49,387 bases of DNA from IMG/VR virus record IMGVR_UViG_3300046520_000036, positions 1 through 49,387 of that record, one strand, 5' to 3'. Below the pieces are notes generated by a model. It saw nothing but the letters and a program-made list of their open reading frames with translations. It was not told the origin of the DNA and did no database searches. Both the position numbers and the translations under genes were made by a program. Numbering within the stretch: position 1 is the stretch's first letter; every line of letters starts with the position of its first letter. Origin of the DNA: a virus. Of this stretch, positions 10,728 to 49,387 are shown piece by piece.

Positions 10728-10757
10728 AACCCCGCCTAATAAGCGGGGGTTCTTTTA
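10728..10757 (+). terminator. Rho-independent terminator after tail fibre operon
   Basis: AACCCCGC at 10728-10735 pairs with GCGGGGGTT at 10743-10751 around the loop CTAATAA, followed by TCTTTT. It separates the rightward tail genes from the converging leftward operon. Confidence 0.85.
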
Positions 10758-10949
10758 GTGCAAAGTAGGTGGTTTCGATAGTAGTTCCGGTTCTTCTCCT
10801 TCATGCGCAAGTTCGGCAATCATTACATAATGATCCGTATCCTTGCATGGCTCCATCTGGATATTGAATCCATGCCCCGCCAGTTCGCAGACTAGATCCG
10901 CGACCATGTCCGGAAACGGGAAGAATTTTAGTTTGATTCGTTGACTCAT
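10755..10949 (-). CDS. Small protein of unknown function
   Basis: I do not recognise this 64-residue product. The start ATG at 10949 overlaps the stop of the upstream gene as ATGA and has an AAGGAAG ribosome site. The sequence is a mixed alpha/beta pattern with a DMVADLVCEL segment and an acidic C-terminus, without membrane segments. It is the last gene of the leftward operon that starts near 13080, and its stop touches the convergent terminator. Confidence 0.65.
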   Translation of the reverse strand: MSQRIKLKFFPFPDMVADLVCELAGHGFNIQMEPCKDTDHYVMIAELAHEGEEPELLSKPPTLH

Positions 10950-11152
10950 TTGATTGGCTTCCTTATTGGCTGGGTTCCAGTGCATTCATTGCAGTAAAGA
11001 ATCCCTAGACTCTGAAAAAAGATCGCCCCGCTACCGCCGATCTCGTGACTGCATTCGCAAACTTTCTGCGAGAACTCTAAGTTCTTCTCGCATCTCGACC
11101 TGACCAGCAATCCACATTCCTTTCTCTGCTCCTGATTGATAAGGGCATTCAT
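10946..11152 (-). CDS. Small Cys-rich protein, probable zinc binder
   Basis: The 68-residue product has CECSH near residues 32-36 and YCNEC near 54-58, which could form a small zinc ribbon. ATG at 11152 has a GGAG site 8 bases upstream, and the stop forms ATGA with the next gene, both good signs of translation. It overlaps the upstream 62-residue gene by 122 bases in another frame, which is unusual. A shorter internal start is possible. Confidence 0.5.
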   Translation of the reverse strand: MNALINQEQRKECGLLVRSRCEKNLEFSQKVCECSHEIGGSGAIFFQSLGILYCNECTGTQPIRKPIK

Positions 11153-11219
11153 GCTTATTCTCCAGATACGCTACCTTGCCCTCAAGGTAAAACGGGTTGC
11201 TCAAAACTTTATGCTGCAT
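11031..11219 (-). CDS. Small Rmf-like phage protein
   Basis: The 62-residue product contains NPFYLEGKVAYLENKHECPY followed by W and G residues. This resembles the short family of phage proteins related in pattern to ribosome modulation factor (an AF.AG....CPY...W..G layout). Resemblance is by eye only. It starts at ATG 11219 after a GGGAAG site, three bases from the upstream stop. The C-terminal half is highly charged (MREELRVLAESLRMQSRDRR) and overlaps the next gene in a different frame. Confidence 0.55.
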   Translation of the reverse strand: MQHKVLSNPFYLEGKVAYLENKHECPYQSGAEKGMWIAGQVEMREELRVLAESLRMQSRDRR

Positions 11220-11221
11220 AA

Positions 11222-11434
11222 CTACTTCCCTAAAGCCTTCAATGCTGCGCTCAGTCTTGGCGTTTGTGTCGCCTCCTGAGCAGCCGCAATCAATTCCAAT
11301 ATTGCTGCACGATTGGCGGCATGTCTAACTTTGTTCTGTTCGCTATGGCACTTGATACAGGCCCTGTTCGGCAAGTAACGACGACCGGCGATCTCAGGAT
11401 GCTTGGCGCACTCTTCGCCGTAGAAGGCTCTCAT
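11222..11434 (-). CDS. Small zinc-finger-like phage protein
   Basis: The 70-residue product has the layout FYGxxCxxH...RRYLPNRACIKCHSEQN, a short zinc-binding pattern seen in many small phage proteins that resemble the recombination endonuclease VII fold or its remnants. The C-terminal half is an Ala-rich helix. The start overlaps the stop of the upstream gene as ATGA. Function is unknown; nucleic-acid binding is plausible. Confidence 0.65.
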   Translation of the reverse strand: MRAFYGEECAKHPEIAGRRYLPNRACIKCHSEQNKVRHAANRAAILELIAAAQEATQTPRLSAALKALGK

Positions 11435-12054
11435 TTAGCTAACTCTCTTAGATCGACAGAGAGACAAAAATCATCTAATTCAAGCTTGGCCGAAATTACT
11501 TCGATTCCAGTCTTCATCCGCTCAATCTCCAACTTCAGCTGACGGACTTTGCGAAACTCCTTGTCGTACAGGGCCTGAAGTCTTTCAACTTCAGCCATAT
11601 CATCATCAATGCCAGATTTCAGCCGAGTATTTTGATCGGTAAGCTGCACGATGGTGGCTTGCAGTTCGGCGAGTTCGGGCGGGGCGGTGTAGAGAGGGGA
11701 TTCTTCATAGAATCCGTCAGGCAGCACAATCCACTTCTTACGGCTGAACAAGGGTTGATACTCATATCCGTCTTCGGATCGCTCTAGGTACATCCACGCG
11801 AAAGGCTGGCGCTCGACGACAGGGGCGGCGAACTCTACCAGCGTTGTGCTGCCTTCTTCCGGATACTCGGCGGTCGCCAGATGCAGACCATAGACCTCTT
11901 TCCCGTCATCGTCAGTTACGGTGCCTACCCACAGCAGCCCGTCTGAATGCTCGCCGAAGTTATCCCCGCCGTCTCCGCAGTGAAAGTTGATTGCGCCGAT
12001 TGTTTCTCTGTCCAGCAGCATTGATGCCGGGACTAAAACCATTTTACTGCTCAT
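11431..12054 (-). CDS. Phage protein of unknown function with C-terminal coiled coil
   Basis: The start is placed at ATG 12054, which overlaps the upstream stop (ATGA), giving 207 residues; a longer reading frame upstream lies inside the neighbour. Residues about 5-70 form a beta-rich acidic domain (CGDGGDNFGEHSDGLLWVG), 75-125 include an FAWMYLERSEDG segment, and about 125-195 form a heptad-rich coiled coil (ELQATIVQLTDQN onward). The modular layout is common in accessory proteins of Pseudomonas phages. Role unknown. Confidence 0.65.
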   Translation of the reverse strand: MSSKMVLVPASMLLDRETIGAINFHCGDGGDNFGEHSDGLLWVGTVTDDDGKEVYGLHLATAEYPEEGSTTLVEFAAPVVERQPFAWMYLERSEDGYEYQPLFSRKKWIVLPDGFYEESPLYTAPPELAELQATIVQLTDQNTRLKSGIDDDMAEVERLQALYDKEFRKVRQLKLEIERMKTGIEVISAKLELDDFCLSVDLRELAK

Positions 12055-12545
12055 TCGATTGCTCCCGATTCGGTGGGTTGGTGAAATAACGCGGCCTCGA
12101 TTTCGGCCTGAACGTTTCCGGCCAGTGCGTAATCGCACAGATGGTCCTGTCGCCCTACCATTCGAATGGCTTGGAGCGCTCGACCAAGCAATGCAAGTTG
12201 GTCCGCATTCCGCTGCTCGGCGGCTGCCAGGCGCTCTTTGATTCTGCCGTTCTGGCGCATAAGCTTAAAGTGCTCTGACTCTGCGTTCAGCGGTAGTTCA
12301 TGCTCCGAAGCAACATACGGCCGGCCAGCAAGAACAAGTTCGCAGCGCTTGCCTATCCAGCGTAAGCGACGGGTCACGGTGCGCGACTGGCCGCATGTCT
12401 TCTCGATGTGCTCCAGGGTTTCCCGCAGCGCAGCCAGTTCACGATCATGCTCGTCCGCGCGAACCATCAGCACTTCACATTCGTGCAGATTGCCGCCGAT
12501 ACACAACGCGGTTTCAATGACCGCATAACGCATTACTTTACTCAT
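12051..12545 (-). CDS. Phage protein of unknown function, helical
   Basis: I do not recognise this 164-residue product. ATG 12545 is chosen because GGAGG lies 7 bases upstream; a GTG one codon earlier is the alternative. Most of the sequence is predicted helix with charged heptads (ADEHDRELAALRETLEHIEK; RIKERLAAAEQRNADQ), suggesting a coiled coil or a small oligomer. Both ends overlap neighbouring genes, so it is translated as part of the operon. Confidence 0.65.
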   Translation of the reverse strand: MSKVMRYAVIETALCIGGNLHECEVLMVRADEHDRELAALRETLEHIEKTCGQSRTVTRRLRWIGKRCELVLAGRPYVASEHELPLNAESEHFKLMRQNGRIKERLAAAEQRNADQLALLGRALQAIRMVGRQDHLCDYALAGNVQAEIEAALFHQPTESGAIE

Positions 12546-12622
12546 CACAAATCCTCCGATAGTCCGTTATGAAACAGGCGGCACGTCAGCGCCAGAAAGA
12601 CGAGATAACTAGCAATCCACAT
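12545..12622 (-). CDS. 25-residue membrane micro-protein
   Basis: A short gene (start ATG 12622 within TGATG of the upstream stop; stop overlapping the next start) encodes MWIASYLVFLALTCRLFHNG and five more residues, a single hydrophobic helix. The tight overlaps on both sides are the main evidence; the length alone would not support it. It could be a small membrane effector or simply a coupling cistron. Confidence 0.45.
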   Translation of the reverse strand: MWIASYLVFLALTCRLFHNGLSEDL

Positions 12623-12795
12623 CACGACTTGCACACCTTTTCAAAGTAGCCGTCTACGTTCGGCCACGTCTTCTCGGCGATCATCAAGCAGCGAAACGCC
12701 TGATCATCAAGGCCGTCATTATAGCTCATGCGGTTTGAGATAACGAAACCGGCCGACAGCAGAATTACGATTCCGATTGTTGTAATTGTTTTCAT
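12622..12795 (-). CDS. 57-residue secreted or membrane-anchored protein
   Basis: ATG 12795 follows a clear GGAGG site. The first about 20 residues (MKTITTIGIVILLSAGFVIS) form a signal anchor or signal peptide; the remaining 37 are polar with two Cys (FRCLMIAEK and VCKS) that could form a disulfide in the periplasm. It lies directly upstream of the 25-residue membrane protein. I do not recognise it; a role at the envelope is inferred. Confidence 0.6.
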   Translation of the reverse strand: MKTITTIGIVILLSAGFVISNRMSYNDGLDDQAFRCLMIAEKTWPNVDGYFEKVCKS

Positions 12796-12797
12796 GA

Positions 12798-13052
12798 TTA
12801 ATCCTCCATATTCAATTCAGACTGCGACGGATCTTCCATGTCTACAGCATCAGAGTCGAATTTGCACTCCCATACGTGACTGTAGAGAGACGAATAGAGT
12901 TCGTAGCTGATGCCGCCAACGAGTAGGGCCCCACGCAGCATGCCGAAGATATGCTTGTACTCGCTGGTACGGGAACGCTGAAATTTGTCGTCTGCGTACG
13001 AGATGGCTTTATGTATGGTTTTTACGAATTCTGCTTGGTTGCCTGCGTGCAT
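12798..13052 (-). CDS. First gene of leftward accessory operon, unknown function
   Basis: The start is placed at ATG 13052 (AGGAG 9 bases upstream), giving 84 residues, because the leftward promoter at 13081-13110 would not transcribe the longer upstream frame. The N-terminal half is helical and basic; a LRGALLVGGISYELY stretch is weakly hydrophobic; the C-terminus is acidic (SDAVDMEDPSQSELNMED). Function unknown. Confidence 0.6.
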   Translation of the reverse strand: MHAGNQAEFVKTIHKAISYADDKFQRSRTSEYKHIFGMLRGALLVGGISYELYSSLYSHVWECKFDSDAVDMEDPSQSELNMED

Positions 13053-39530: not shown

Positions 39531-40544
39531 ATGCCAGCAGAAATTTTGAAGTTCAGTAAAGAGCAGGAGGCTGCCGTAATTGGCAAGCGCCGCGCTCACA
39601 ACTCCCGTCAAGACCGCCTCGCGAAAGACAGCGAAGGCGAGCTGATCGGTAACGCCTATACCATCCCCCGCGATGCTTGGGCTACCTATGACCAAGACCT
39701 GATCACCTTGCAGCGTGCTGCGTTGGGCGTGTTCACTGACTTGGCTAGCCTGCAACGTAACGTGCCAATCGGCAAAGTGCTGAACTACTTCTCCAAGGTT
39801 TCCGACCAGGGCGAAGTGAACAGCTCGGTTGACGGTCGTAGCCGTGCCAAGGCAGACGCGCCGATCATCGACTACGAAGGTACTCCGGTTCCTATCTACG
39901 ACACCACCTTCACCTTCGGCTGGCGCGATGTAGAAGCCGCTCGTCAAGACGGTGGTTGGCAGTATCTGGACGCCGCTACTCGCGACAACGGCAACCGCCG
40001 TATCGTTGAGAAGATGGAAGATCTGGTGATCAACGGTGACACCAAGTTCAACGTTGCCGGCAACCAAGTCTTCGGCCTGCGTACCGCACCTGGTCGCGCT
40101 ACCGGCCTGTTCGGTAACTTCGATCTCGTGACCGCTACCGGCGCTCAGTGGGTTTCTGCATTGACCAAAGTGTTGCTCGGCTTCCAAGCGAACAACTACT
40201 ACGGCGGCGCTACGATCTACCTGAACTACGGTGACTGGTTTGCTGCATCGGTTAACGACTACGTGACCGCCGCTCCTCAGAACACCATCCTGTCTCGCCT
40301 GATGTCGATTCCGGGTATCGTGTCCATCGTTCCATCGACCGCTGTTCCAGCAAACGAAATCCTCGGCGTAGTGAAAGAGCGCCGTGTGCTGGAGATCCTG
40401 ACTGCGATGCCTGTTACCACCATGCCGATTGAACGTAAAAACTTCACCGACGAGTACAGCTTCCAGATCATGACCGCAGTAGCACCTCAGTTCAAGAGGG
40501 ATTACAGTGGCAAGGGCGGGACCGCGCACTTCACTAAGGGTTAA
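39531..40544 (+). CDS. Major capsid protein
   Basis: The 337-residue product is the HK97-fold shell subunit. Position, size and sequence (FTFGWRDVEAARQDGGWQYL, KMEDLVINGDTKFNVAGNQV, FGLRTAPGRATG, EYSFQIMTAVAPQFKRD) resemble the encapsulin-like or DUF2184/DUF6260 group of phage capsids; I am unsure which. Codon use is more strongly biased towards C-ending codons than the neighbours, as expected for the most expressed late gene. A terminator follows 16 bases after the stop. Confidence 0.88.
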   Translation: MPAEILKFSKEQEAAVIGKRRAHNSRQDRLAKDSEGELIGNAYTIPRDAWATYDQDLITLQRAALGVFTDLASLQRNVPIGKVLNYFSKVSDQGEVNSSVDGRSRAKADAPIIDYEGTPVPIYDTTFTFGWRDVEAARQDGGWQYLDAATRDNGNRRIVEKMEDLVINGDTKFNVAGNQVFGLRTAPGRATGLFGNFDLVTATGAQWVSALTKVLLGFQANNYYGGATIYLNYGDWFAASVNDYVTAAPQNTILSRLMSIPGIVSIVPSTAVPANEILGVVKERRVLEILTAMPVTTMPIERKNFTDEYSFQIMTAVAPQFKRDYSGKGGTAHFTKG

Positions 40545-40560
40545 TCCTTTGGTTTAAAAT

Positions 40561-40586
40561 AGGGGCCTTCGCGGGCCCCTTTTTAT
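40561..40586 (+). terminator. Terminator after major capsid gene
   Basis: AGGGGCC, loop TTCGCG and GGCCCCT followed by TTTTATT. Confidence 0.85.
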
Positions 40587-40598
40587 TCAGGTGGGAAA

Positions 40599-40790
40599 AT
40601 GAAAGAATTTCAGATCACGCAACCGGGTGTGCTAATTGATGGCGTAGAGCTTGAGATTGGTACGCGAGTCAAGCATGAGTCATTGCCGCCGACTTTGGTT
40701 AACAAGGCTGTCGAGGTTGAGCCAGAGCGGACTCTGGAGGTCGCGACTCCGCGACGTGGAAGGCCGCCGAAAGATCAATCGGCAGAATGA
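40599..40790 (+). CDS. Small protein with AT-hook-like tail
   Basis: The 63-residue product begins MKEFQITQPGVLIDGVELEI, a small beta-like start seen in phage head-tail genes, and ends PRRGRPPKDQSAE, an AT-hook-type basic motif. It could contact DNA at the head interior or be a small head-completion protein. GGTGGG precedes ATG. Function unknown. Confidence 0.6.
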   Translation: MKEFQITQPGVLIDGVELEIGTRVKHESLPPTLVNKAVEVEPERTLEVATPRRGRPPKDQSAE

Positions 40791-40792
40791 AA

Positions 40793-40820
40793 AAAGCCCT
40801 CTAAGTGAGGGCTTTGTTTT
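40793..40820. terminator. Bidirectional terminator
   Basis: AAAGCCCT, loop CTAAGTG and AGGGCTTT with T-rich tail on the plus strand and a run of A before it, so it serves both the 40599 gene and the convergent leftward gene. Confidence 0.85.
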
Positions 40821-40995
40821 AGCTATGAAAGTCGAACGTAACCATGAATCTCTCATGATTTCCCCACATCATGACGCCAGCATCAAACCCACAAGCAATT
40901 AGTTCTGCACATTGCTTGTGCGCAGTCCAAGCGTCGTCGTAAAAGTAGCAGAACGGCATTTTCATTAGATCAGTACAAGCAGAACAATGAGCCAT
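40819..40995 (-). CDS. 58-residue Cys-rich protein in leftward insert unit
   Basis: A minus-strand reading frame from ATG 40995 encodes MAHCSACTDLMKMPFCYFYD and on to MVTFDFHS, with five Cys. A GAGG ribosome site lies 13 bases upstream, rather far; an overlapping 11-codon hydrophobic frame has better spacing and might act as a leader. The gene follows the 48-residue gene in the same unit. Function unknown. Confidence 0.5.
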   Translation of the reverse strand: MAHCSACTDLMKMPFCYFYDDAWTAHKQCAELIACGFDAGVMMWGNHERFMVTFDFHS

Positions 40996-41030
40996 AACAT
41001 GGTCGTATCCTCGGCTGGTGATTGGGCTGA

Positions 41031-41177
41031 CTAGAGAAAGCTCAGGACTCGTTCGTATTCGTCGTTAAGGCGTTTTGCTTCTTCCTGTGCCTCTGCTTCG
41101 TCGTCAAAGCTGTCGATCAGCATCTTGTCGCTCACGATGTCGAATCGGCCAGCTTGTTGTTTTACGGTGAAGTTCAT
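41031..41177 (-). CDS. 48-residue acidic protein in leftward insert unit
   Basis: ATG 41177 with GGAG 8 bases upstream encodes MNFTVKQQAGRFDIVSDKML followed by an acidic helical tail (SFDDEAEAQEEAKRLNDEYE). It lies 35 bases after the -10 of a good leftward promoter. The pattern of a beta hairpin plus charged helix occurs in small phage proteins. Function unknown. Confidence 0.6.
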   Translation of the reverse strand: MNFTVKQQAGRFDIVSDKMLIDSFDDEAEAQEEAKRLNDEYERVLSFL

Positions 41178-41211
41178 TTGTTGCTCCATTGGTTTGCCTT
41201 GCTTGAAATGA

Positions 41212-41240
41212 ACATTAGGTCACATCGGATCCAACGTCAA
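41212..41240 (-). promoter_or_regulatory. Leftward sigma70-like promoter of insert unit
   Basis: On the minus strand TTGACG (41240-41235), 17 bases, TAATGT (41217-41212). Confidence 0.7.
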
Positions 41241-41248
41241 GCACCCCA

Positions 41249-41257
41249 TGCTAAAAT
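41249..41257 (+). promoter_or_regulatory. Late-type extended -10 promoter
   Basis: TGCTAAAAT, 29 bases upstream of the 41287 gene and back to back with the leftward promoter. Confidence 0.55.
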
Positions 41258-41286
41258 AGTGGTTAAACCTATGTGAGCGCCGACGA

Positions 41287-42150
41287 ATGGCAATGATCTA
41301 CGAAATTCCTCGCGGCAGTCTCGAATCGGGACCGATGAGTCTGGATTATGACTCTGGGCTGGCGACGATCCAGTATTACAATGCTGGAGGGGTTGAGATT
41401 ACGCCGACTGGGGTTGCGACGATCTCGGTTAGTCCGACGCTCACGGGGGAGAATTTCAAAGCCATTTATCCGTCTGCGCTGGGTCAGTGGTCGTTCGATG
41501 GCCCGTGTGCGCGCCTACGTGTGTCTCTGGCTGGCACGAACGCCGTAACTGCCTATCTGCGCGTATGGCGTGGCGACGATGCAGGCTCTGGCATTCCTTC
41601 TGGCGCGTTCGGCGGCACCAGGGCGCTGACGGTTCAATTTTACCCGGAAGCGAACGTAAAGAACGGGCTTCAGTTCAACCTGCGCGCCGTGTGGCCTATT
41701 GCCGATCCTATCGCTATCGGTACGTCTCGAAAGGTTTGGTTCAAGACAAACGCCAAGCCTGTGATCATCAAGATCCGCGATTTCCAGTACATCGCTGAAG
41801 AGCTGAAGCTTGAGCTGTTCACAGGCCCGACTGGTGTGTCTGGCGGCACTGATCTACTGATCCACAACTACAACGGCGTGAACCCTGTAGCGACCACCGT
41901 GGCAGCAAAGAAGAACGTAACGATCACCAGCAACGGCACCCAGTTCGATCATAGCGACCCTGAATACTTCTTTGGCAGCGCGAACGACCCGCAGCGTCAG
42001 TCGGCTACGGCATTCCCGATTGGTCGCGAACGTATCTTGCCGGCAAACACTGAGTTCGCCGTGGTGATCAGCAACACCGGCACAGGCAGCGCTCGGGTTC
42101 AGTATTACCTCGACTTTTTCGAAGGCGGGACGGACTTCCCGCTTCCATAA
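41287..42150 (+). CDS. Putative virion structural protein
   Basis: The 287-residue product is beta-rich, with Gly/Thr/Asn-rich segments (SVSPTLTGENFKAIYPSALG; GPCARLRVSLAGTNAVTAYL; FAVVISNTGTGSARVQYYLD) and no enzymatic motif. Its location between capsid and head-completion genes and its beta-sandwich character suggest a head fibre, decoration or minor capsid protein. ATG 41287 or 41293 could be the start. Confidence 0.55.
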   Translation: MAMIYEIPRGSLESGPMSLDYDSGLATIQYYNAGGVEITPTGVATISVSPTLTGENFKAIYPSALGQWSFDGPCARLRVSLAGTNAVTAYLRVWRGDDAGSGIPSGAFGGTRALTVQFYPEANVKNGLQFNLRAVWPIADPIAIGTSRKVWFKTNAKPVIIKIRDFQYIAEELKLELFTGPTGVSGGTDLLIHNYNGVNPVATTVAAKKNVTITSNGTQFDHSDPEYFFGSANDPQRQSATAFPIGRERILPANTEFAVVISNTGTGSARVQYYLDFFEGGTDFPLP

Positions 42151-42161
42151 CAAACCAAACT

Positions 42162-42196
42162 TGCGGATGTCTAATCTAGACGATTAAGCATCCGCA
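42162..42196 (+). other. Strong intergenic hairpin upstream of a ribosome site
   Basis: TGCGGATG (42162-42169) pairs with CATCCGCA (42189-42196), and inside it TAATC pairs with GATTA around loop TAGAC. The stem ends at the AGGTG ribosome site of the 42205 gene. There is no U-run. It may tune translation or protect the downstream mRNA. Confidence 0.6.
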
Positions 42197-42204
42197 GGTG
42201 ACTC

Positions 42205-42471
42205 ATGAGCCCCGATATATCCCTTCCAGCAGGCGTATGGAGTAACGTCTATACCGCGTCAGGTATCACGCCAGGAACGCCAATCCTAGTTATCAACAAA
42301 GGCGGCAGTATGGCCTTTCTATGGGAAGGACCAACACCACCAGCAAACTCTGCATGGGATGGTGCTACGTTCTTCGCTGATCCTTGGGTAGCTGATCAGG
42401 CGGGGATCTCTGGCTGCTGGGTAAAGAGTAATGGTCCTGTGGTCATTAACGTGCAGGTGTATACCCTATGA
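42205..42471 (+). CDS. Small putative virion protein
   Basis: The 88-residue product is beta-rich (LPAGVWSNVYTASGITPGTP; GSMAFLWEGPTPPANSAWDG; PVVINVQVYTL), compatible with a small fibre or decoration domain. It overlaps the next gene as ATGA and is expressed with the 41287 gene. Not recognised. Confidence 0.55.
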   Translation: MSPDISLPAGVWSNVYTASGITPGTPILVINKGGSMAFLWEGPTPPANSAWDGATFFADPWVADQAGISGCWVKSNGPVVINVQVYTL

Positions 42472-42779
42472 TTTATCCGAGGAAGTTGCGCGGGGCTAGA
42501 GGTATCACTAAGCGAATCGAACCATACACCGGCACAACCGACGCAAACGGATTGTATACAGTAACGTATCCAATCGCATTCTCGGCAATCCCAAACGTCC
42601 AGCCAGAACCACCAACAGTCGCCAACTACACATGGATCAAGGTAACTAGCACGACAACTGGTTTCAGTCTCAGGCTGATTCAGCGTGCATCGTTGACGGT
42701 GCTTGGGCTTGAGTTGCTGGCCGCTCAATTCACCAACGTAGCAGGCGCTGCTGCTCGGGTTTTGGTTGTGGAATCATAG
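42468..42779 (+). CDS. Fibre-tip-like virion protein
   Basis: The 103-residue product contains YTGTTDANGLYTVTYPIAFS, AIPNVQPEPP, and TTTGFSLRLIQRASLTVLGL, a pattern that is common at the C-terminal tip of phage fibres (predicted value compared with expected; the AFSAIPNVQ block). It is probably a small structural or head-fibre tip protein. A terminator follows. Confidence 0.6.
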   Translation: MIYPRKLRGARGITKRIEPYTGTTDANGLYTVTYPIAFSAIPNVQPEPPTVANYTWIKVTSTTTGFSLRLIQRASLTVLGLELLAAQFTNVAGAAARVLVVES

Positions 42780-42785
42780 GTAATA

Positions 42786-42809
42786 AAAAGCCCTCCGGAG
42801 AGGGCTTTT
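42786..42809. terminator. Bidirectional terminator
   Basis: AAAAGCCCTC, loop CGGA and GAGGGCTTTT, with runs on both sides; it serves the rightward structural genes and the convergent 42812-43084 gene. Confidence 0.88.
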
Positions 42810-42811
42810 GC

Positions 42812-43084
42812 TTACGAGATATTTGGACTTAGCCAGACCTTCGCGTCAATTCCTGTTAGCAGCTTGAATCTCTGCTTAAGAGAATCAACCTCGGACTGAT
42901 CCCAACTAACTTCGCATGGCGAATAATCTGGACTCAGCGCGTAATGAAATCCTACAAGACCATCGCTACCACCATCGTAATATGGCGGGCAAACCTCAAG
43001 CTCGTCCTCGTCGATCAGTTGTTCAAAATCACCGTCGTCTCGTGGAAGACCAACAAAAATAGATGCTGCTGAATCAATGCCCAT
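42812..43084 (-). CDS. Acidic protein in second leftward insert unit
   Basis: The 90-residue product is strongly acidic (GLPRDDGDFEQLIDEDELEV; PPYYDGGSDGLVGF), compact, with two Cys and no membrane segment. It stands alone between head genes, antisense to them, with its own promoter (43115-43143) and terminator, the arrangement of a moron. Acidic small proteins in such units include inhibitors of host defences, but no family is recognised here. Confidence 0.65.
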   Translation of the reverse strand: MGIDSAASIFVGLPRDDGDFEQLIDEDELEVCPPYYDGGSDGLVGFHYALSPDYSPCEVSWDQSEVDSLKQRFKLLTGIDAKVWLSPNIS

Positions 43085-43114
43085 TTGTGCAATCCTCTGC
43101 TGTAGAGCAGTCGA

Positions 43115-43143
43115 ACTCTATAGCCGCAACGATTTCACGTCAA
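43115..43143 (-). promoter_or_regulatory. Leftward sigma70-like promoter of insert unit
   Basis: On the minus strand TTGACG (43143-43138), 17 bases, TAGAGT (43120-43115), the same boxes as the early promoter at 18464-18492. Confidence 0.75.
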
Positions 43144-43150
43144 GCAAAAA

Positions 43151-43159
43151 TGCTAAAAT
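43151..43159 (+). promoter_or_regulatory. Late-type extended -10 promoter
   Basis: TGCTAAAAT, 27 bases upstream of the 43187 gene. Confidence 0.55.
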
Positions 43160-43186
43160 AGGCCAAACTATTTTCAGGTGGCGAAA

Positions 43187-43576
43187 ATGCCGACGCTAGA
43201 CCAGCTCAAGCAGTACCTTACGTCTATCGGTGTGCCACTGCCTCCGGACTTCATTTTGCAGGCATGGCTTGATACCGTCTCTGTCATTCAGCCGTGCCTT
43301 GATGGCGCTGGCTATCCTGCATCTACTCAATTGCTGATCTATCTGTACACGCTGAGCCTGTACGGCATCGTGGCTGGCGACAAGTACATCTCAAGCCAAA
43401 CCGCACCCTCTGGCGCATCTCAATCCTTCCGCTACAACAACCTGCAAGACAAGTATCGCGGCATGCTGAACTCGCTCAACATGCTCGACACCAGCGGCTG
43501 CACTGATTCCGTTATCCCCGCGATTCCTGGCGCATCTGCCGGCCTATGGGTTTCTACTGGCGGGAAGTGCTGCTAA
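43187..43576 (+). CDS. Head-tail adaptor-like protein
   Basis: The start is ATG 43187 (AGGTGG 7 bases upstream), giving 129 residues. The first half (LDQLKQYLTSIGVPLPPDFI, LQAWLDTVSVIQPCLDGAGY) is helical, like gp6/gp15-type head-tail connectors; the sequence also has LLIYLYTLSLYGIVAGDKYI and a Gly/Ser-rich tail. It probably forms a ring below the portal. Confidence 0.65.
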   Translation: MPTLDQLKQYLTSIGVPLPPDFILQAWLDTVSVIQPCLDGAGYPASTQLLIYLYTLSLYGIVAGDKYISSQTAPSGASQSFRYNNLQDKYRGMLNSLNMLDTSGCTDSVIPAIPGASAGLWVSTGGKCC

Positions 43577-43761
43577 TGGTTAGAGAAGTGTGGACTAAGT
43601 ACGGATACAGAGACATGAGCGAAGAGGATTATGCCGCTTTCGTGGCTAATCCTCCTGAAACCACAGCGCCTTGCAGATCCCACGACATGTCAGATATTCC
43701 ACTTTTCTTCCTGCTGATGATCTTCATGGCGGCAGGGTTCTTTGTGGGGTATTCGCTCTAA
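43576..43761 (+). CDS. Small single-span membrane protein
   Basis: ATG 43576 overlaps the upstream stop (TAATG), giving 61 residues: a soluble N-terminal part (VREVWTKYGYRDMSEEDYAA) and a C-terminal transmembrane helix (IPLFFLLMIFMAAGFFVGYS). A membrane protein inside the head-completion genes is odd; it may be an inserted accessory gene. It overlaps the next gene. Confidence 0.6.
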   Translation: MVREVWTKYGYRDMSEEDYAAFVANPPETTAPCRSHDMSDIPLFFLLMIFMAAGFFVGYSL

Positions 43762-44105
43762 TGGCATTCATGTCCGCATGGTACTTCACCGAGATCGCCA
43801 CAGTCTACCCAAGGCTCTCAGAGAGCGACTGGGGAGGCGGAATCACCTACGGAGCCCCATACACCATCATGTGCGGCTTCGAAGGCGTATCGCGGCAATC
43901 ACTAGATCAGGAAGGCGCCGAGTTCGTCACCAAAGACATCTATTACACGGGTGACGAGCGCCCTGCATATCTAGACCGCATCGCATTCGGCGATACATCT
44001 GGCAGCGCATGGGACACAGTATCAGCTAGCGAAATCCGGAAGAGAGCACGTCACGGAATGAGCGCATTTGGCTACGATGATGAATTTGACTTGGAAACTG
44101 CATAA
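43761..44105 (+). CDS. Head-completion/connector-like protein
   Basis: The start is placed at ATG 43761, overlapping the upstream stop, giving 114 residues. Mixed alpha/beta: FTEIATVYPRLSESDWGGGI, YTIMCGFEGVSRQSLDQEGA, DRIAFGDTSGSAWDTVSASE. Position after the adaptor gene suggests a head-tail joining protein. Not recognised. Confidence 0.6.
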   Translation: MAFMSAWYFTEIATVYPRLSESDWGGGITYGAPYTIMCGFEGVSRQSLDQEGAEFVTKDIYYTGDERPAYLDRIAFGDTSGSAWDTVSASEIRKRARHGMSAFGYDDEFDLETA

Positions 44106-46333
44106 TGATCTTGCATGGAACACTGCTAAACCCTCTTGGCGCTCCATATGCGAACTCCTCTGTTCGGCTGGTGTCGGTGCAGACGTCGCCTCAAGTGCTC
44201 GCCTCTGCATTTTCAAGCTTCACGACTGACGAGGATGGCGAGTATTCGTTTGATTGCCCTATTGGTCGATATCGCGTTCAGATTGCCGGCCTACTTGGTG
44301 TTCGCGATATTGGCATTATTACCGTTACATCCACAACTACATTCGATAACATCAATGATCTATTGATACTTGAAGCTACAACGATCCCTCGCGACCCTCT
44401 GCTTGACCAGATGATGGTTGTTGCTGGCGAGGCTCAGGCTTCTGCTGATCTTGCCGCAAGCCTTCTCTCTACAAAAGTTAGCGTCGTTGATTTGGCTGAT
44501 GATTCCGATCCGTTAAAGGGGGCGGGAGCTGTCGGGACGGTTCGCGAGCCAATGGTCGACTTCACTCAAGGGACAGTCGCAGCGGCACTTGGAACAACAT
44601 GGGTGAATGTCTGGGAATTCAGACACCTGATCACGGTGAAGCCTGACCCACAAAGTCCGTCAACGTGGGACTGGACTCCAGCCATCGCAGGAGCGCAGGC
44701 CAAGGCCGTAGAGCTGGCCAGTGTTTCCTACGGCGGTTATGGCGTAGAGTTTCCAGCCGGCGTTTATCCGGTGACTCGGGTATTCCACTACAGCGGTATC
44801 TCTCTGCGCGGCATGGGGTCGCGCAATACCTTCTTGACGGCGCTGGTCTTCGATCCGGCTGACGGTCGCCCCTACGGGATGCTTGAGCTGGCACCAGGCG
44901 CAATACAGGGCGCACACATCACCGGGCTGAACTTCTGCGGTTCTGCCGCTGCTGTATATGGTGCCGCTGCGGCCAACGCCGATCAGTGGGGCTTCTACTG
45001 CCACGCCCAATATAACGAAGCTTTGACGCAGGGTGGCTTTTGGCACTCTAACGTGCTGGACGTTTGTTTTTGGAGCTTCAACAAAGGTATCTGGTCCCGA
45101 GGCGGATACACGCATGCCAACTCCAGGCGACCGCACCAGTGGATCGACTGGGCTGGAGTGCAGGTGGTTGTGCAGGACGGCGGCGAAGCGTGGCTGTTCA
45201 CCGGCCAGCACGGTCAGATTGTGGTGCGCGGCGGTCATGGGGAAGGCATCAGCGCTGCAACGCCAAAGCGAGCGTTGTACAGCGTCAAGATTGCCGTAGA
45301 CCCTGACCCATCGACAACCGCATATAACGGCATCAACGGCGAAAGCACTTCAGATGTGACTGGCGTAGGCAATGCCAATAGGGCGGGGCACAGCATCAGC
45401 TTCACTGATGGCTATTCGTTCCAGCGTTCTGCTAGAGGCCTATGGTCAACCGGCCCCGCCAGAAACGTCGCTGCCGAAAAGTGCTGGTTCGAAACCTTGG
45501 CCTATGCCGTGACAAAGGAAGGCGACGGCAATATCAGCCTGACAAACAACCACTTTGCCAATGCCGGGATAGGTACAACTGGCGGCGGTGTAGCGGGCAG
45601 CGGTTACATTCTCTCTCTTGGCGCAACCGGTCAGATTGATTGGGGTATCGGCAACGTCGTCGAGGGCTCCTACGACCACCTCGTTGCGCCTACGTCGTCT
45701 GGTGCCAATGAGTGCAATGGATTCAACTTCACCGGCAGCCTCAGGATTGCGGCGAACGGCACAACAATTATCCCTACACTCGCGCAAAAATCCCCGGCGA
45801 TGGACGCATCAGGTGTGATCGATATGGGGCATCACAGGTTCGGCACAGTTGCCCCAAATGCCGATCCGTCAGTGCGACTTTCAACGATTATCAGCAACTT
45901 GCTGCCAGGGCAGACCATTGTCCTGCGCGCGTCATCGGGCCCGGTGACGATTAAAAACTCTGCTGGCGGGAACATCGTTACAGGCAGTGGGAAGGACATC
46001 ACCATCCCGGTTGGCGGCATAGCAACTTTCTTGCGCATCCTGCCATATGTGGCGGGCACTGAATTCCTGCTGCAATCCGTTTCGACGCATTACGCTGCCG
46101 CCGCGCCTACGGATGGGTATTACTACGCTCAGGGTCACATCGTAGAAAACAGCACGCCATCGGCAAGCACGCCAGTCAGATGGGAATGCGCAACGGCTGG
46201 GCTTGCAGGATCAACAGCAGTATTCGGCGCAAGCTTTGTCGGTGGTCAAATCCCTTCCCTTCGACGCAAATCCCTTCATCTGACCCGAACACCCTGGACG
46301 ACTACGAGGAAAACAATTTCACGCCAACCCTGA
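44105..46333 (+). CDS. Beta-helix tailspike, main frame (frameshifted near 46255)
   Basis: The 742-residue frame encodes an N-terminal Ig/carboxypeptidase-regulatory-like domain (TLLNPLGAPYANSSVRLVSV to CPIGRYRVQIAGL, about 4-62), a linker with coiled-coil potential (about 100-125) and a large right-handed beta-helix (about 190-560: VEFPAGVYPVTRVFHYSGIS, LRGMG), the plan of polysaccharide-degrading tailspikes. After Pro at 46253-46255 the frame continues into an unrelated basic tail (SLRRKSLHLTRTPWTTTRKT). The neighbouring frame there gives FPSTQIPSSDPNTLDDYEEN, the expected continuation, so a single T is missing in this sequence. Confidence 0.78.
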   Translation: MILHGTLLNPLGAPYANSSVRLVSVQTSPQVLASAFSSFTTDEDGEYSFDCPIGRYRVQIAGLLGVRDIGIITVTSTTTFDNINDLLILEATTIPRDPLLDQMMVVAGEAQASADLAASLLSTKVSVVDLADDSDPLKGAGAVGTVREPMVDFTQGTVAAALGTTWVNVWEFRHLITVKPDPQSPSTWDWTPAIAGAQAKAVELASVSYGGYGVEFPAGVYPVTRVFHYSGISLRGMGSRNTFLTALVFDPADGRPYGMLELAPGAIQGAHITGLNFCGSAAAVYGAAAANADQWGFYCHAQYNEALTQGGFWHSNVLDVCFWSFNKGIWSRGGYTHANSRRPHQWIDWAGVQVVVQDGGEAWLFTGQHGQIVVRGGHGEGISAATPKRALYSVKIAVDPDPSTTAYNGINGESTSDVTGVGNANRAGHSISFTDGYSFQRSARGLWSTGPARNVAAEKCWFETLAYAVTKEGDGNISLTNNHFANAGIGTTGGGVAGSGYILSLGATGQIDWGIGNVVEGSYDHLVAPTSSGANECNGFNFTGSLRIAANGTTIIPTLAQKSPAMDASGVIDMGHHRFGTVAPNADPSVRLSTIISNLLPGQTIVLRASSGPVTIKNSAGGNIVTGSGKDITIPVGGIATFLRILPYVAGTEFLLQSVSTHYAAAAPTDGYYYAQGHIVENSTPSASTPVRWECATAGLAGSTAVFGASFVGGQIPSLRRKSLHLTRTPWTTTRKTISRQP

Positions 46334-46701
46334 CGTTCAGCACCCCTGGTAATTTGGCGGTCACGTACAGTGCTCAGACCGGTCGGTATACTAAGATAGG
46401 CAGGAGTGTCAATGCGGAGATTCGCCTAGACACTTCAGCTTTCACACATACCACTGCTGCCGGAACACTTACGATTACTGGGTTGCCGTTTGCGCCGGCA
46501 GTTACCTCTATCGGAGTGGTTAGATTCGGCGGAATCAATAAGGCAGGCTACACGCAGGCGGTGTTTCAGATAGCTGGTGGTGCGACCACCGCAACGCTGG
46601 CTGCATCTGGTATGGGTGTAGCGCCGGCAGACGTTGTAGTTGCTGATGTGCCATCAGGTGGCGCTGTTACAGTTCGGGCAAGCATCACTTATGATGTGTA
46701 A
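46180..46701 (+). CDS. Beta-helix tailspike, C-terminal domain in shifted frame
   Basis: The open frame is 173 residues, but only from about 46252 on does it look real: FPSTQIPSSDPNTLDDYEEN, FTPTLTFSTPGNLAVTYSAQ, TGRYTKIGRSVNAEIRL and ITGLPFAPA, a beta-rich domain found at the C-termini of many phage fibre and spike proteins. Together with the upstream frame it would make a spike of about 864 residues (44105-46701). Restoring one T at CCTTCCC (46253-46259) joins the two. An independent start is unlikely because the first 24 residues are shadow sequence. Confidence 0.7.
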   Translation: MGMRNGWACRINSSIRRKLCRWSNPFPSTQIPSSDPNTLDDYEENNFTPTLTFSTPGNLAVTYSAQTGRYTKIGRSVNAEIRLDTSAFTHTTAAGTLTITGLPFAPAVTSIGVVRFGGINKAGYTQAVFQIAGGATTATLAASGMGVAPADVVVADVPSGGAVTVRASITYDV

Positions 46702-46727
46702 TGCTTGCGCAATAGAGAGTAACCATA

Positions 46728-47144
46728 ATGCCAGTCAAAGGCCTAAAAGAAGTTCGGCAAAGCCTGCATAAGCTAATCGGGCAAATTAGCGGGCCAATGG
46801 CTGAGAAGGCGTTGACAGAGGTCATGATCGTTGCTGGCGGTTATGCAGCAACGATGACGCCGATTGATACCAGCAACTTGATTAATAGCCAGTTCCGCCA
46901 TATTGGCAAATCGTCTAATGGCGTTACCGCAATGCTTGGCTACACGGCAGCATACGCAGCAGCTGTACATGACAAGAAAGGCACGACTCTCGGCAAGAAT
47001 ATTCCGCGATCTAAGGCTGACCCGTCTCGCGGCAACTTTTGGGATCCTGATGCAGAGCCTGGATTCCTGAAAAAAGCATTTGAAGAGCCTGACGCAAGGG
47101 CTGATATTGACGCAGTAGTTGAAAGGTACATGAAACTACCATGA
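46728..47144 (+). CDS. Tail completion protein (HK97 gp10-like)
   Basis: The 138-residue product has an HK97-gp10-like pattern: LKEVRQSLHKLIGQI, then MTPIDTSNLINSQFRHIG, YTAAYAAAVHDKKGTTLGKN, and FLKKAFEEPDARADIDAVVE. This family closes the head-tail joint. It overlaps the next gene as ATGA. Confidence 0.78.
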   Translation: MPVKGLKEVRQSLHKLIGQISGPMAEKALTEVMIVAGGYAATMTPIDTSNLINSQFRHIGKSSNGVTAMLGYTAAYAAAVHDKKGTTLGKNIPRSKADPSRGNFWDPDAEPGFLKKAFEEPDARADIDAVVERYMKLP

Positions 47145-47527
47145 GCCACACACCGATAAACCTATTCCGCGACTGGCTAGAGCTATATGTCTCGACGACT
47201 GGCTACACAATCAGTCGCGGCATGTGGGAAGAGACTAATAACTCGGCTAAGAAGTTCGTGGCCGTTTGGTCTGACTCTGGCCGTACACCTAATGGTGAAA
47301 TCCAGTATCCGCATATTCGCGTGATCGTAACCGGTCGCGCAAATGGTCGAGCGCTAGGTGATACAGAAGGCGCTGAATTATTCGCAGAGTCGCTATTTGA
47401 TGCGGCGCTCGCTAACTTTGAAACTAGCTGCATGATGCAAATTAGACCGATAGGTAGCGTACAGGGACCGTATTACACCGAGACGTCAAGGCCTTGGGTA
47501 GAAATTAACTTCGAATTGACGTGTTAA
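47141..47527 (+). CDS. Tail terminator-like protein
   Basis: The 128-residue product has the plan of tail terminators (gpU/gp11-like): INLFRDWLELYVSTTGYTIS, YPHIRVIVTGRANGRALGDT, AELFAESLFDAALANFETSC, WVEINFELTC. It precedes the tail tube gene, the canonical place. The late-type element TGTTAAACT lies across its stop codon. Confidence 0.65.
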   Translation: MSHTPINLFRDWLELYVSTTGYTISRGMWEETNNSAKKFVAVWSDSGRTPNGEIQYPHIRVIVTGRANGRALGDTEGAELFAESLFDAALANFETSCMMQIRPIGSVQGPYYTETSRPWVEINFELTC

Positions 47528-47530
47528 ACT
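47522..47530 (+). promoter_or_regulatory. Late-type extended -10 promoter for tail tube gene
   Basis: TGTTAAACT overlaps the stop of the upstream gene and lies 54 bases before the tail tube start. Confidence 0.45.
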
Positions 47531-47584
47531 ATCTGCATCTGCTCGTTTTGGGCGATACAAAATCAACCTTGAAGGTAAATTGAA

Positions 47585-48313
47585 ATGGCTTTGAACTGCG
47601 CCTCGGACAAGTTCGTAGGTAAGAGCGTTCTCGCTGAGTTCGCGCTTGCTTGCGGTGATGTAGACCCGCTGACTTTGACGTGGCTGCCACTTGGCGCAGC
47701 TCGTAACAAGTCTAAAACCATGTCGGCTGATACCGTTGATGCTACCGCTGATGACTCGGTAGGCAGCTTTCGCGATACGCTGATCACCTACAAGACTTTT
47801 GAAGTCTCGATTGATGGCGTTACCAAGCGCGACGACGGCACCACTTCGAACCAACAATTGCTGGCTAACCACTTCGAAACCGATCCGCAGCCGTATGTAT
47901 GGATCCGTCTGACCGGCCCGATCAACTCGACTACCGCTTTCTGCGTACTGACCGAGTTCAGCGAAGAATACCCGTATGACGACGTAGCTACCTACTCGAT
48001 GACCGCAAGTGCTACTTCGCGCCCTGGTGGCTTGGCTAGCGTTATCACCGCGCCTACTCCTATCGCCGTGACCTCGGTTACAGTTTCGCCAGCCACTGCA
48101 ACCGTAGCTGTCGGCCTGACTACCAACCTGATTTCGCACGTACTGCCGAATGCTGCGCTGCAAAGCGTGACTTGGAGTTCTGCAACTCCGGCGAAGGCTA
48201 CAGTAAACTCTTCCGGCGTGGTTACTGGCGTTTCTGCTGGTACTTCCGTGGTCACTGCGACATCTGTCAGCGATCCTACGAAATCGGCAAGCTGCACCGT
48301 TACAGTCGCATAA
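47585..48313 (+). CDS. Major tail tube protein with C-terminal Ig-like (BIG2) domain
   Basis: The 242-residue product has a tube core in residues 1-155 (DPLTLTWLPLGAARNKSKTM, DTLITYKTFEVSIDGVTKRD, CVLTEFSEEYPYDDVATYSM) followed by a bacterial Ig-like domain of the BIG2 type (VTSVTVSPATATVAVGLTTN, SATPAKATVNSSGVVTGVSA, SASCTVTV). Such surface domains on tail tubes are thought to help weak binding to cell-surface sugars. Codon bias is like the major capsid gene. A terminator follows. Confidence 0.88.
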   Translation: MALNCASDKFVGKSVLAEFALACGDVDPLTLTWLPLGAARNKSKTMSADTVDATADDSVGSFRDTLITYKTFEVSIDGVTKRDDGTTSNQQLLANHFETDPQPYVWIRLTGPINSTTAFCVLTEFSEEYPYDDVATYSMTASATSRPGGLASVITAPTPIAVTSVTVSPATATVAVGLTTNLISHVLPNAALQSVTWSSATPAKATVNSSGVVTGVSAGTSVVTATSVSDPTKSASCTVTVA

Positions 48314-48330
48314 CTGTGGCAGATATACAG

Positions 48331-48354
48331 AGCCTCCTTCGGGGGGCTTTTTAT
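48331..48354 (+). terminator. Terminator after tail tube gene
   Basis: AGCCTCC, loop TTCG and GGGGGCT followed by TTTTATT. Its far side also meets the convergent leftward gene ending at 48358. Confidence 0.85.
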
Positions 48355-48357
48355 TGC

Positions 48358-48567
48358 CTACAATTCTCTAGCTGAAAGATATCGATATTTCTCTGGCGAC
48401 ATGCACGAGAATCGCGGATCTTGATTGTTCTTAGCGTTCTCGCGGTTTGCAAAATTAGCAATTTGCACGCACTCATAATCGCTTGTTATTTTGAATTTCT
48501 CTGTCACTTCCATGTAGATGCATCCTATATCTACGCAAAGACCAGCTACAAGCACTAAGGTAAGCAT
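48358..48567 (-). CDS. Small secreted or membrane-anchored protein in third leftward unit
   Basis: ATG 48567 with CAGGAG upstream gives 69 residues; the longer frame upstream lacks a ribosome site and runs across the promoter. A hydrophobic N-terminus (MLTLVLVAGLCVDIGCIYME) suggests a signal peptide or anchor, followed by a soluble part with two Cys (YECVQIANFANREN, RFSCMSPEKY) that could form a disulfide in the periplasm. Standing alone among tail genes with its own promoter, it looks like a moron that alters the host envelope, possibly in superinfection exclusion; no family recognised. Confidence 0.6.
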   Translation of the reverse strand: MLTLVLVAGLCVDIGCIYMEVTEKFKITSDYECVQIANFANRENAKNNQDPRFSCMSPEKYRYLSAREL

Positions 48568-48599
48568 TTTGTTCTCCTGAATCTCGTGTGTGTCCGCTG

Positions 48600-48627
48600 A
48601 GTATATCCATAGCCTGATTGCCGTCAA
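48600..48627 (-). promoter_or_regulatory. Leftward sigma70-like promoter of insert unit
   Basis: On the minus strand TTGACG (48627-48622), 16 bases, TATACT (48605-48600). Confidence 0.7.
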
Positions 48628-48635
48628 GCTAAGAA

Positions 48636-48644
48636 TGGTAAAAT
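48636..48644 (+). promoter_or_regulatory. Late-type extended -10 promoter before tail chaperone
   Basis: TGGTAAAAT, 26 bases upstream of ATG 48671. Confidence 0.55.
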
Positions 48645-48670
48645 ACTTGATATTTCTATGGACGCAAAAA

Positions 48671-49297
48671 ATGCGCAGCCCTATCACGTCGATTGGAGAG
48701 ATTGGCGCCTACGTTGGCGACAAGGAGTATCTCTTCAGGCCATCACTCGCTGCCATGGATTCCCTTGGATCTCCTGCTGAGATCGTGGAGAAGTTCGCGC
48801 TTATTTTTTCTTCGCCGACCATAAATCCGATATGGCCGATCCGGTCTTACAGGGCTTGGGAGCGCGAGGTTATGTCTACGGCATATGACGTGCTGGTCGC
48901 TTGCTGCGAGGATGACGTGACGCCTCTGCTTGGTCATATGGGCAGTAAGTGGGGATCGTTCGTCCCTGGCGCTATGCCAGCCATCGACATGATCTACCTG
49001 GCTCGGTCGCTGATGAGTGACGGAATAATCGGGCTAAAGCCAGAGGGGCGCCCAGTAGAGAAGTCGAAAAACGAATACACCGCCAAATTTGAGGCTCGTG
49101 ATTTTGTCGCTCAGGCTGTCGCGCACTTGGGCATGTCGAGTGCTGATGCTTGGAACCTGACCATGACCGAATTTTCAGGCGCTATGCAGTCGAAATTCGG
49201 CAAGCCGGAAACACTCCCTAGCCTAGACGAACACGATGAAGCGATGTCCCGTCTCGCAGAAATTAATAGATTGAGACAGTATCAGGTGAACAAATGA
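48671..49297 (+). CDS. Tail assembly chaperone-like protein (DUF6246-like)
   Basis: The start is ATG 48671 because the late promoter at 48636 lies inside the longer frame, giving 208 residues. It lies between tail tube and tape measure genes, the standard place of tail chaperones that coat the tape measure before tube assembly, and is helical (LAAMDSLGSPAEIVEKFALI; ARDFVAQAVAHLGMSSADAW). I see no second overlapping frame and the stop overlaps the tape measure start as ATGA, so the usual G/GT frameshift product seems absent. Confidence 0.7.
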   Translation: MRSPITSIGEIGAYVGDKEYLFRPSLAAMDSLGSPAEIVEKFALIFSSPTINPIWPIRSYRAWEREVMSTAYDVLVACCEDDVTPLLGHMGSKWGSFVPGAMPAIDMIYLARSLMSDGIIGLKPEGRPVEKSKNEYTAKFEARDFVAQAVAHLGMSSADAWNLTMTEFSGAMQSKFGKPETLPSLDEHDEAMSRLAEINRLRQYQVNK

Positions 49298-49387
49298 GCA
49301 ACCTTGGAACCATCACGTACACGACGAACATAGAGACGGCTCAGCTTGTTTCGAGTACGAAGGTTGCAGACAAGCAGCTTGACGGAC
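49261..49387. repeat. Terminal exact repeat, right copy (with start of tape measure gene)
   Basis: Identical to bases 1-127. The tape measure gene starts again at 49294 and is cut by the window end; it is the same gene as 34-3381. Confidence 0.95.

Follow-up and report, generated by a model that had tools for sequence, protein, structure and literature searches.

Probable antisense moron-like cassettes with overlapping divergent promoters and exchanged cargo in a group of ES18-like siphophages

The window analyzed here is an IMG/VR virus record of 49,387 bases (IMGVR_UViG_3300046520_000036), in which three small leftward units lie among the structural genes, at positions that we call sites 1, 2, and 3. 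Taken together, the predicted promoters and the comparison with relatives make it likely that these units are antisense, moron-like cassettes of virulent ES18-like siphophages, that their promoters overlap those of the adjoining structural genes, and that their cargo is exchanged at sites 1 and 2. A cassette would be composed of a shared terminator, one or more leftward cargo genes, a leader with a ribosome site, and a sigma70-like leftward promoter, the TTGACG -35 element of which would sit within the promoter that drives the next structural gene rightward from an extended -10 element (TGNTARAAT). Such a layout would leave structural transcription intact after the terminator while cargo is expressed from the opposite strand.

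The three units share the motif CGTCAAGC-N-ATGSTAAAATA, which a sequence-only reading of this DNA had taken for a single divergent promoter cassette repeated with different small genes. Its three copies begin where that reading placed them (41235, 43138, and 48622); there are none elsewhere in the window, 0 are expected, and 100 dinucleotide shuffles of the window yielded 0. The repetition at three sites thus stands, but the motif is, as judged from its bases, a pair of overlapping, divergent putative promoters instead of one element. Read on the minus strand, TTGACG matches a sigma70-like -35 element for leftward transcription, with TAATGT, TAGAGT, or TATACT as the corresponding -10 element after a spacer of 16-17 nt. 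The plus-strand sequence, TGCTAAAAT or TGGTAAAAT, matches the extended -10 element of a rightward structural-gene promoter without a -35 element, and rightward promoters across the relatives likewise have no conserved -35 element.

To place the motif in context, we compared the window with ~58 IMG/VR fragments (labelled L012, L047, and so on); a capsid search had returned 36 relatives, the majority 85-94% identical, and the set was widened by two further searches. At 120 rightward extended -10 sites preceding structural genes, GTCAA (from the leftward -35 element) and a predicted leftward gene were both present at 78 and both absent at 23, with 19 discordant (8 with GTCAA only and 11 with a gene only; Fisher p = 3e-10, a descriptive value because the sites are related to each other). 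TTGACG itself is almost confined to sites with a leftward gene. Most of the discordance has a local correlate: the contig ends at three of the 8 GTCAA sites lacking a predicted gene (L053, L056, and L072), and three more of them carry only the micro-ORF described below (L013, L035, and L045), while the 11 gene-bearing sites without GTCAA include six with a TTGCA-type -35 element and four with the endonuclease x1. Among 74 unique leftward promoters, 81% have at least 4 of the 6 TATAAT bases at a spacing of 15-18, versus 17% when shuffled. On the association of GTCAA with leftward genes and on these -10 matches, we rejected a reading of the motif as one rightward element. In L012 and other relatives, the promoter overlap also occurs at the portal gene, in inverted form (CGTCAATGGTAGAAT). 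At the other end of the units, hairpins mark 95 of 102 convergent junctions, and 55 have T-tracts on both strands.

The genes behind these promoters vary among relatives at two of the three sites. Twelve promoter-proximal families occupy 20 loci at site 1, and 17 occupy 32 loci at site 2 (or at a merged site without intervening genes); site 3 has five families in 39 loci. Families also recur across sites: x9 is found at site 2, at site 1, and beside the head-morphogenesis gene, and x40, x42, x44, the 41031 family, and endonuclease x1 each occur at more than one site. An identical stretch of 35 nt, from the -10 element through the ribosome site, precedes the unrelated genes x9 (L047, site 2) and x130 (L104, site 1), and the unrelated x80 and x94 have a common leader up to ATGAAC and then diverge. 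Common leaders in front of unrelated genes therefore argue for exchange with joints at the promoter, leader, or start codon. A separate cargo gene, x121 (L042:10915-11145), has its last ~ten codons in common with the 41031 family and differs in the remainder; a resemblance limited to the last codons suggests a chimera formed by recombination near the 3' end. The earlier proposal of a conserved promoter module with exchanged cargo, checked by comparison at the same loci, accordingly holds for sites 1 and 2 but not for site 3, where the same gene recurs.

How far do these units qualify as morons? An extra gene that is absent or different in relatives is found at sites 1 and 2 and not at site 3, and each unit has its own predicted promoter and terminator. 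Expression from a prophage to the benefit of a lysogen has no counterpart here, with no integrase in 17 records and no capsid match in 84,980 genomes. The units are moron-like in architecture, and not in lifestyle or lysogenic conversion.

At site 1, the predicted leftward promoter has TTGACG (CGTCAA on the plus strand) at 41235-41240 (-), an element that accompanies a leftward gene in relatives, and TAATGT at 41212-41217 (-) with a spacer of 17; the predicted rightward extended -10 element of gene 41287-42150 is TGCTAAAAT at 41249-41257 (+). Behind the leftward promoter lie a gene for a 48-aa cargo protein at 41031-41177 (-; 27 family members, median dN/dS 0.13), the 11-codon micro-ORF at 40965-41000 (-), a second 48-aa ORF (MKMPFCYF...) at 40819-40965 (-) that is restricted to this window, and a bidirectional terminator hairpin with T-tracts (AAAGCCCTCTAAGTGAGGGCTTT, 40793-40815). 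The second ORF had been read as 58 residues (40819-40995); its start is more likely at 40965, coupled through TAATG to the unlisted micro-ORF. At site 2, TTGACG at 43138-43143 (-) and TAGAGT at 43115-43120 (-; spacer 17) face TGCTAAAAT at 43151-43159 (+), the predicted extended -10 element of gene 43178-43576 (phrog_786). The cargo is an acidic 90-aa protein of no known family (42812-43084, -), which has one more copy among relatives (L049, same site), and the unit closes with hairpin AAAAGCCCTCCGGAGAGGGCTTTT (42786-42809). Site 3 has TTGACG at 48622-48627 (-) and TATACT at 48600-48605 (-; spacer 16), opposite TGGTAAAAT at 48636-48644 (+), the predicted extended -10 element of gene 48671-49297 (phrog_791). 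Its gene, at 48358-48567 (-; median dN/dS 0.10), encodes a 69-aa protein with four conserved cysteines, and a hairpin at 48330-48351 separates it from the major tail protein gene. The leftward genes were recovered with positive scores by a dicodon gene finder that had been trained on the relatives (27, 31, and 13 for 41031-41177, 42812-43084, and 48358-48567), and the low dN/dS of the first and third indicates purifying selection. All three units close with T-tract hairpins, and the sequence-only reading had placed bidirectional terminators at their ends.

That reading had also called the 69-aa protein envelope-targeted. An AlphaFold2 model built with 28 relatives instead predicts a compact beta-beta-alpha-beta-alpha fold (pLDDT 93) without an N-terminal signal or membrane helix; the hydrophobic N-terminus (residues 5-12) is modelled as a strand, so an envelope location appears unsupported. 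A Foldseek search with the model returned nothing at E <= 0.001. By its distribution across loci, the 48358 gene is a core gene of the phage group, and site 3 would thus combine the same promoter design with a core gene inside.

The window's own cargo has no usable match in PADLOC, Pfam, PHROGs, or NCBIfam, and these searches lent no support to the suggested anti-defence or superinfection-exclusion role. Relatives are more informative. A polyhydroxyalkanoate (PHA) depolymerase, PhaZ, is cargo in 17 of them and not in the window (L023:7061-7894, L024:2094-2927, and ~15 further loci). The protein exceeds the TIGR02240 equivalog cut-off of 250.6 bits (402.8 and 413.1 bits), and in an alignment with Pseudomonas proteins its catalytic Ser-Asp-His is kept, with S111 in GxSWG, D231, and H258 invariant; its median dN/dS of 0.08 indicates strong purifying selection. 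In most of the 17 loci, phaZ lies behind the 48-aa gene of the 41031-41177 family. The nearest bacterial relatives of PhaZ are from Pseudomonas (65-69% identity), and the phage collection holds none at >=60% identity, the best distant alpha/beta hydrolase matches being ~30%. Relatives also carry TerB, an SPFH lipoprotein, an RNA ligase, and CapR-T5orf172 (GIY-YIG-type) endonucleases as cargo. The last of these, the CapR plus T5orf172/MUG113 genes of family x1, stand at many sites on either strand (L029, L032, L034, L037, L047, and others) and are probably free-standing homing endonucleases. Searches of the literature library available to us found no direct precedent for a phage PHA depolymerase or for moron cassettes with overlapping divergent promoters, and a scan for one leader gained no phage beyond this group.

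The micro-ORF of unit 1 (MLWLIVLLVLI) falls below the length limit of the ORF list. GAGGA, a Shine-Dalgarno site, stands 7 bases before its ATG, and it is coupled by TAATG to the next ORF. Of the 43 relatives in which site 1 is complete, 29 have hydrophobic counterparts of 10-12 codons (MLWLLLLILI, MLWLILLILI, MLWLIVLLILI, and MLTAALILLLLF), usually immediately before the terminator; in L045, a counterpart lies at site 3. In L013, L035, L016, and L045, it is the sole occupant behind the promoter, with no other leftward gene predicted. A first-order Markov model expects 0.017 such ORFs per 49 kb, and 34 were observed in 823 kb. A collection-wide pattern scan returned 22 stretches, 21 of them from group contigs already included and one from an additional contig, L191; the distant and cultured phages examined yielded no counterpart. 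Across the versions, extra states at codon positions 1, 2, and 3 number 12, 0, and 21, and the micro-ORF is, by this measure of its bases, coding in pattern. The peptide would be translated and is presumably membrane-active. Type I toxins of the Ibs and Ldr families are likewise very short and almost wholly hydrophobic, but have 18 or more residues against 10-12 here, and a search for antitoxin RNA families in Rfam, at its gathering cut-off, gave no match in 40400-49387.

Three other accounts deserve weighing. If CGTCAAGC belonged to the rightward promoter as a late-activator site, there would be no leftward promoter and the leftward ORFs would be read otherwise or never. In its favour, the distance from GTCAA to TANAAT is nearly fixed (10-11 nt in 83 of 86 cases), and GTCAA recurs next to extended -10 sites in the distant phage K1M. 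Against it, GTCAA is missing from the 23 structural promoters that have no leftward gene, the leftward -10 element is at its proper 15-18 nt in most promoters, the distance can drop to 3-5 nt both in K1M and at the portal site, where the overlap is inverted, and leftward genes are under purifying selection; we regard an activator site as improbable. Hardly less unlikely is that these are ordinary core genes on the other strand, with general phage mosaicism over-read as cargo exchange. The 48358 family at site 3 and the promoter-proximal genes of the 10755-13052 operon (below) look like this, and the rightward genes beside sites 1 and 2 vary too (the w41287 set or x4-x5-x6). The number of alternative families at sites 1 and 2, the recurrence of families at several sites in either orientation, and the leaders that unrelated genes share without change nevertheless refute it there, and it is the best account of site 3. 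For the micro-ORF, an RNA or attenuation element that works with the adjoining terminator, its peptide irrelevant, has perhaps the chance of a minority explanation: it lies 1-12 nt from the terminator in most relatives, and short Leu-rich ORFs before terminators resemble leader peptides. Yet substitutions avoid codon position 2, the 10-, 11-, and 12-codon versions all keep their hydrophobicity behind a conserved Shine-Dalgarno site, flanking sequence is less conserved than the micro-ORF, and in the window a gene separates it from the terminator.

Several observations weigh against antisense cassettes with exchanged cargo. L026 has the module and no convincing leftward gene; the constant GTCAA-to-TANAAT distance would also fit common descent or an unknown bound protein; site 3 is not exchanged, the window's 69-aa family being present in 33 of its 39 loci; single-linkage clustering underlies some leader families; and the relatives include many incomplete contigs, some near-identical to each other. 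We still consider such cassettes the probable explanation. Replacement of cargo would proceed by recombination, one joint lying at the terminator and the other at the conserved module, the leader, or the start codon. The two promoters have ~30 bp in common, so two polymerases could not occupy them simultaneously, and transcription of leftward cargo probably competes with that of the structural operon; cargo might be read early by host polymerase, which would later be displaced. In most relatives, unit 1 would add the 10-12-residue hydrophobic peptide. A fuller version is more tentative, and we would put it at somewhat under an even chance: a general cargo-exchange platform of virulent phages, where two promoters that exclude each other set the timing of cargo relative to structural genes, the most persistent product of unit 1 is a translated membrane microprotein of 10-12 residues, and, in some of the phages, a PHA depolymerase delivered in the course of infection opens a host carbon store.

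By profiles, the window is a siphophage with terminase, portal, head-morphogenesis, major tail, tape-measure, DnaB/DnaC, and exonuclease genes; the region is called late solely from its gene content. Positions 1 and 49387 both fall in the tape-measure gene, where the two ends meet, and the gene after w48590 in relatives is a homologue of the window's first gene; the record is therefore a permuted circle or a terminally redundant genome. Its closest cultured capsid relatives (Citrobacter K1M, Klebsiella KpV2811, and Mannheimia phages) are <50% identical, further structural genes have their matches in ES18 and in two Pseudomonas phages, DDSR119 and Torfinnsbu, and a near-identity search of the phage collection found no match to the late region. 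The group is plant- and soil-associated, with Pseudomonas as its probable host. The phage integrase PF00589 was absent from the 17 records searched (a control search was positive in 14 of 14 genomes), and a seeded search with the capsid protein found no relative in the 84,980 bacterial genomes; these phages are therefore probably virulent, and their cargo probably acts in lytic infection, as PhaZ, RNA ligase, and TerB in relatives may do.

Other regions are also leftward. The operon at 10755-13052, previously grouped with the motif units, does have a putative leftward TTGCGC promoter (TTGCGC-18-TACAAT, facing TGGTAAACT) but lacks the motif. It lies opposite the lysis genes; all 10 relatives with that endolysin retain its two promoter-proximal genes, and only the distal genes vary. 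Portal and head-morphogenesis genes lie leftward at 34398-36846; gene 36846-37691 (29-49% identical among relatives) takes the cargo position there, the promoter overlap being inverted in relatives such as L012. In L035 (3528-5378), the head-morphogenesis gene (616 aa) has an intein-like insertion.

Lambdoid-phage morons, including possible morons of Enterobacteria phage ES18, likewise sit as additional genes among the structural genes of a related head-tail module, each bringing its own promoter and terminator, and ES18 gp22 and gp25 are also leftward. The units described here differ: their promoter, part of a repeated module, overlaps a structural promoter, their cargo is exchanged among sites, and our search of the group found no lysogeny gene. 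Citrobacter phage vB_CfrS_K1M has leftward blocks at matching places, one of them separating the major tail protein gene from the DUF6246 gene, and these show a TTGAC/TGNTANAAT overlap, but the annotations of its cargo are different (DNA polymerase III beta subunit, ParB, DUF551, and DUF2591), its capsid is 49% identical, and its element spacing is variable. Pseudomonas phage Torfinnsbu, whose host is P. poae and whose nearest isolate is DDSR119 (PMC11780129), shares the leftward portal and head-morphogenesis genes, a similar gene order, and extended -10 sites after terminators, but its annotation shows no leftward unit at any of sites 1-3. Overlapping divergent promoters also form a switch on the conjugative plasmid pLS20 (PMC4207663), in which a regulator and DNA looping take part; the regulator has no identified counterpart here.

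The signature of TTGAC overlapping TGNTARAAT and facing a terminator offers a way to locate accessory genes in the structural regions of phages, including many that gene callers miss because they are so short. Cargo exchange would extend to phages without detectable lysogeny, PHA storage in pseudomonads is indicated as something that phages target, and the product of a very small, conserved ORF is open to direct testing.

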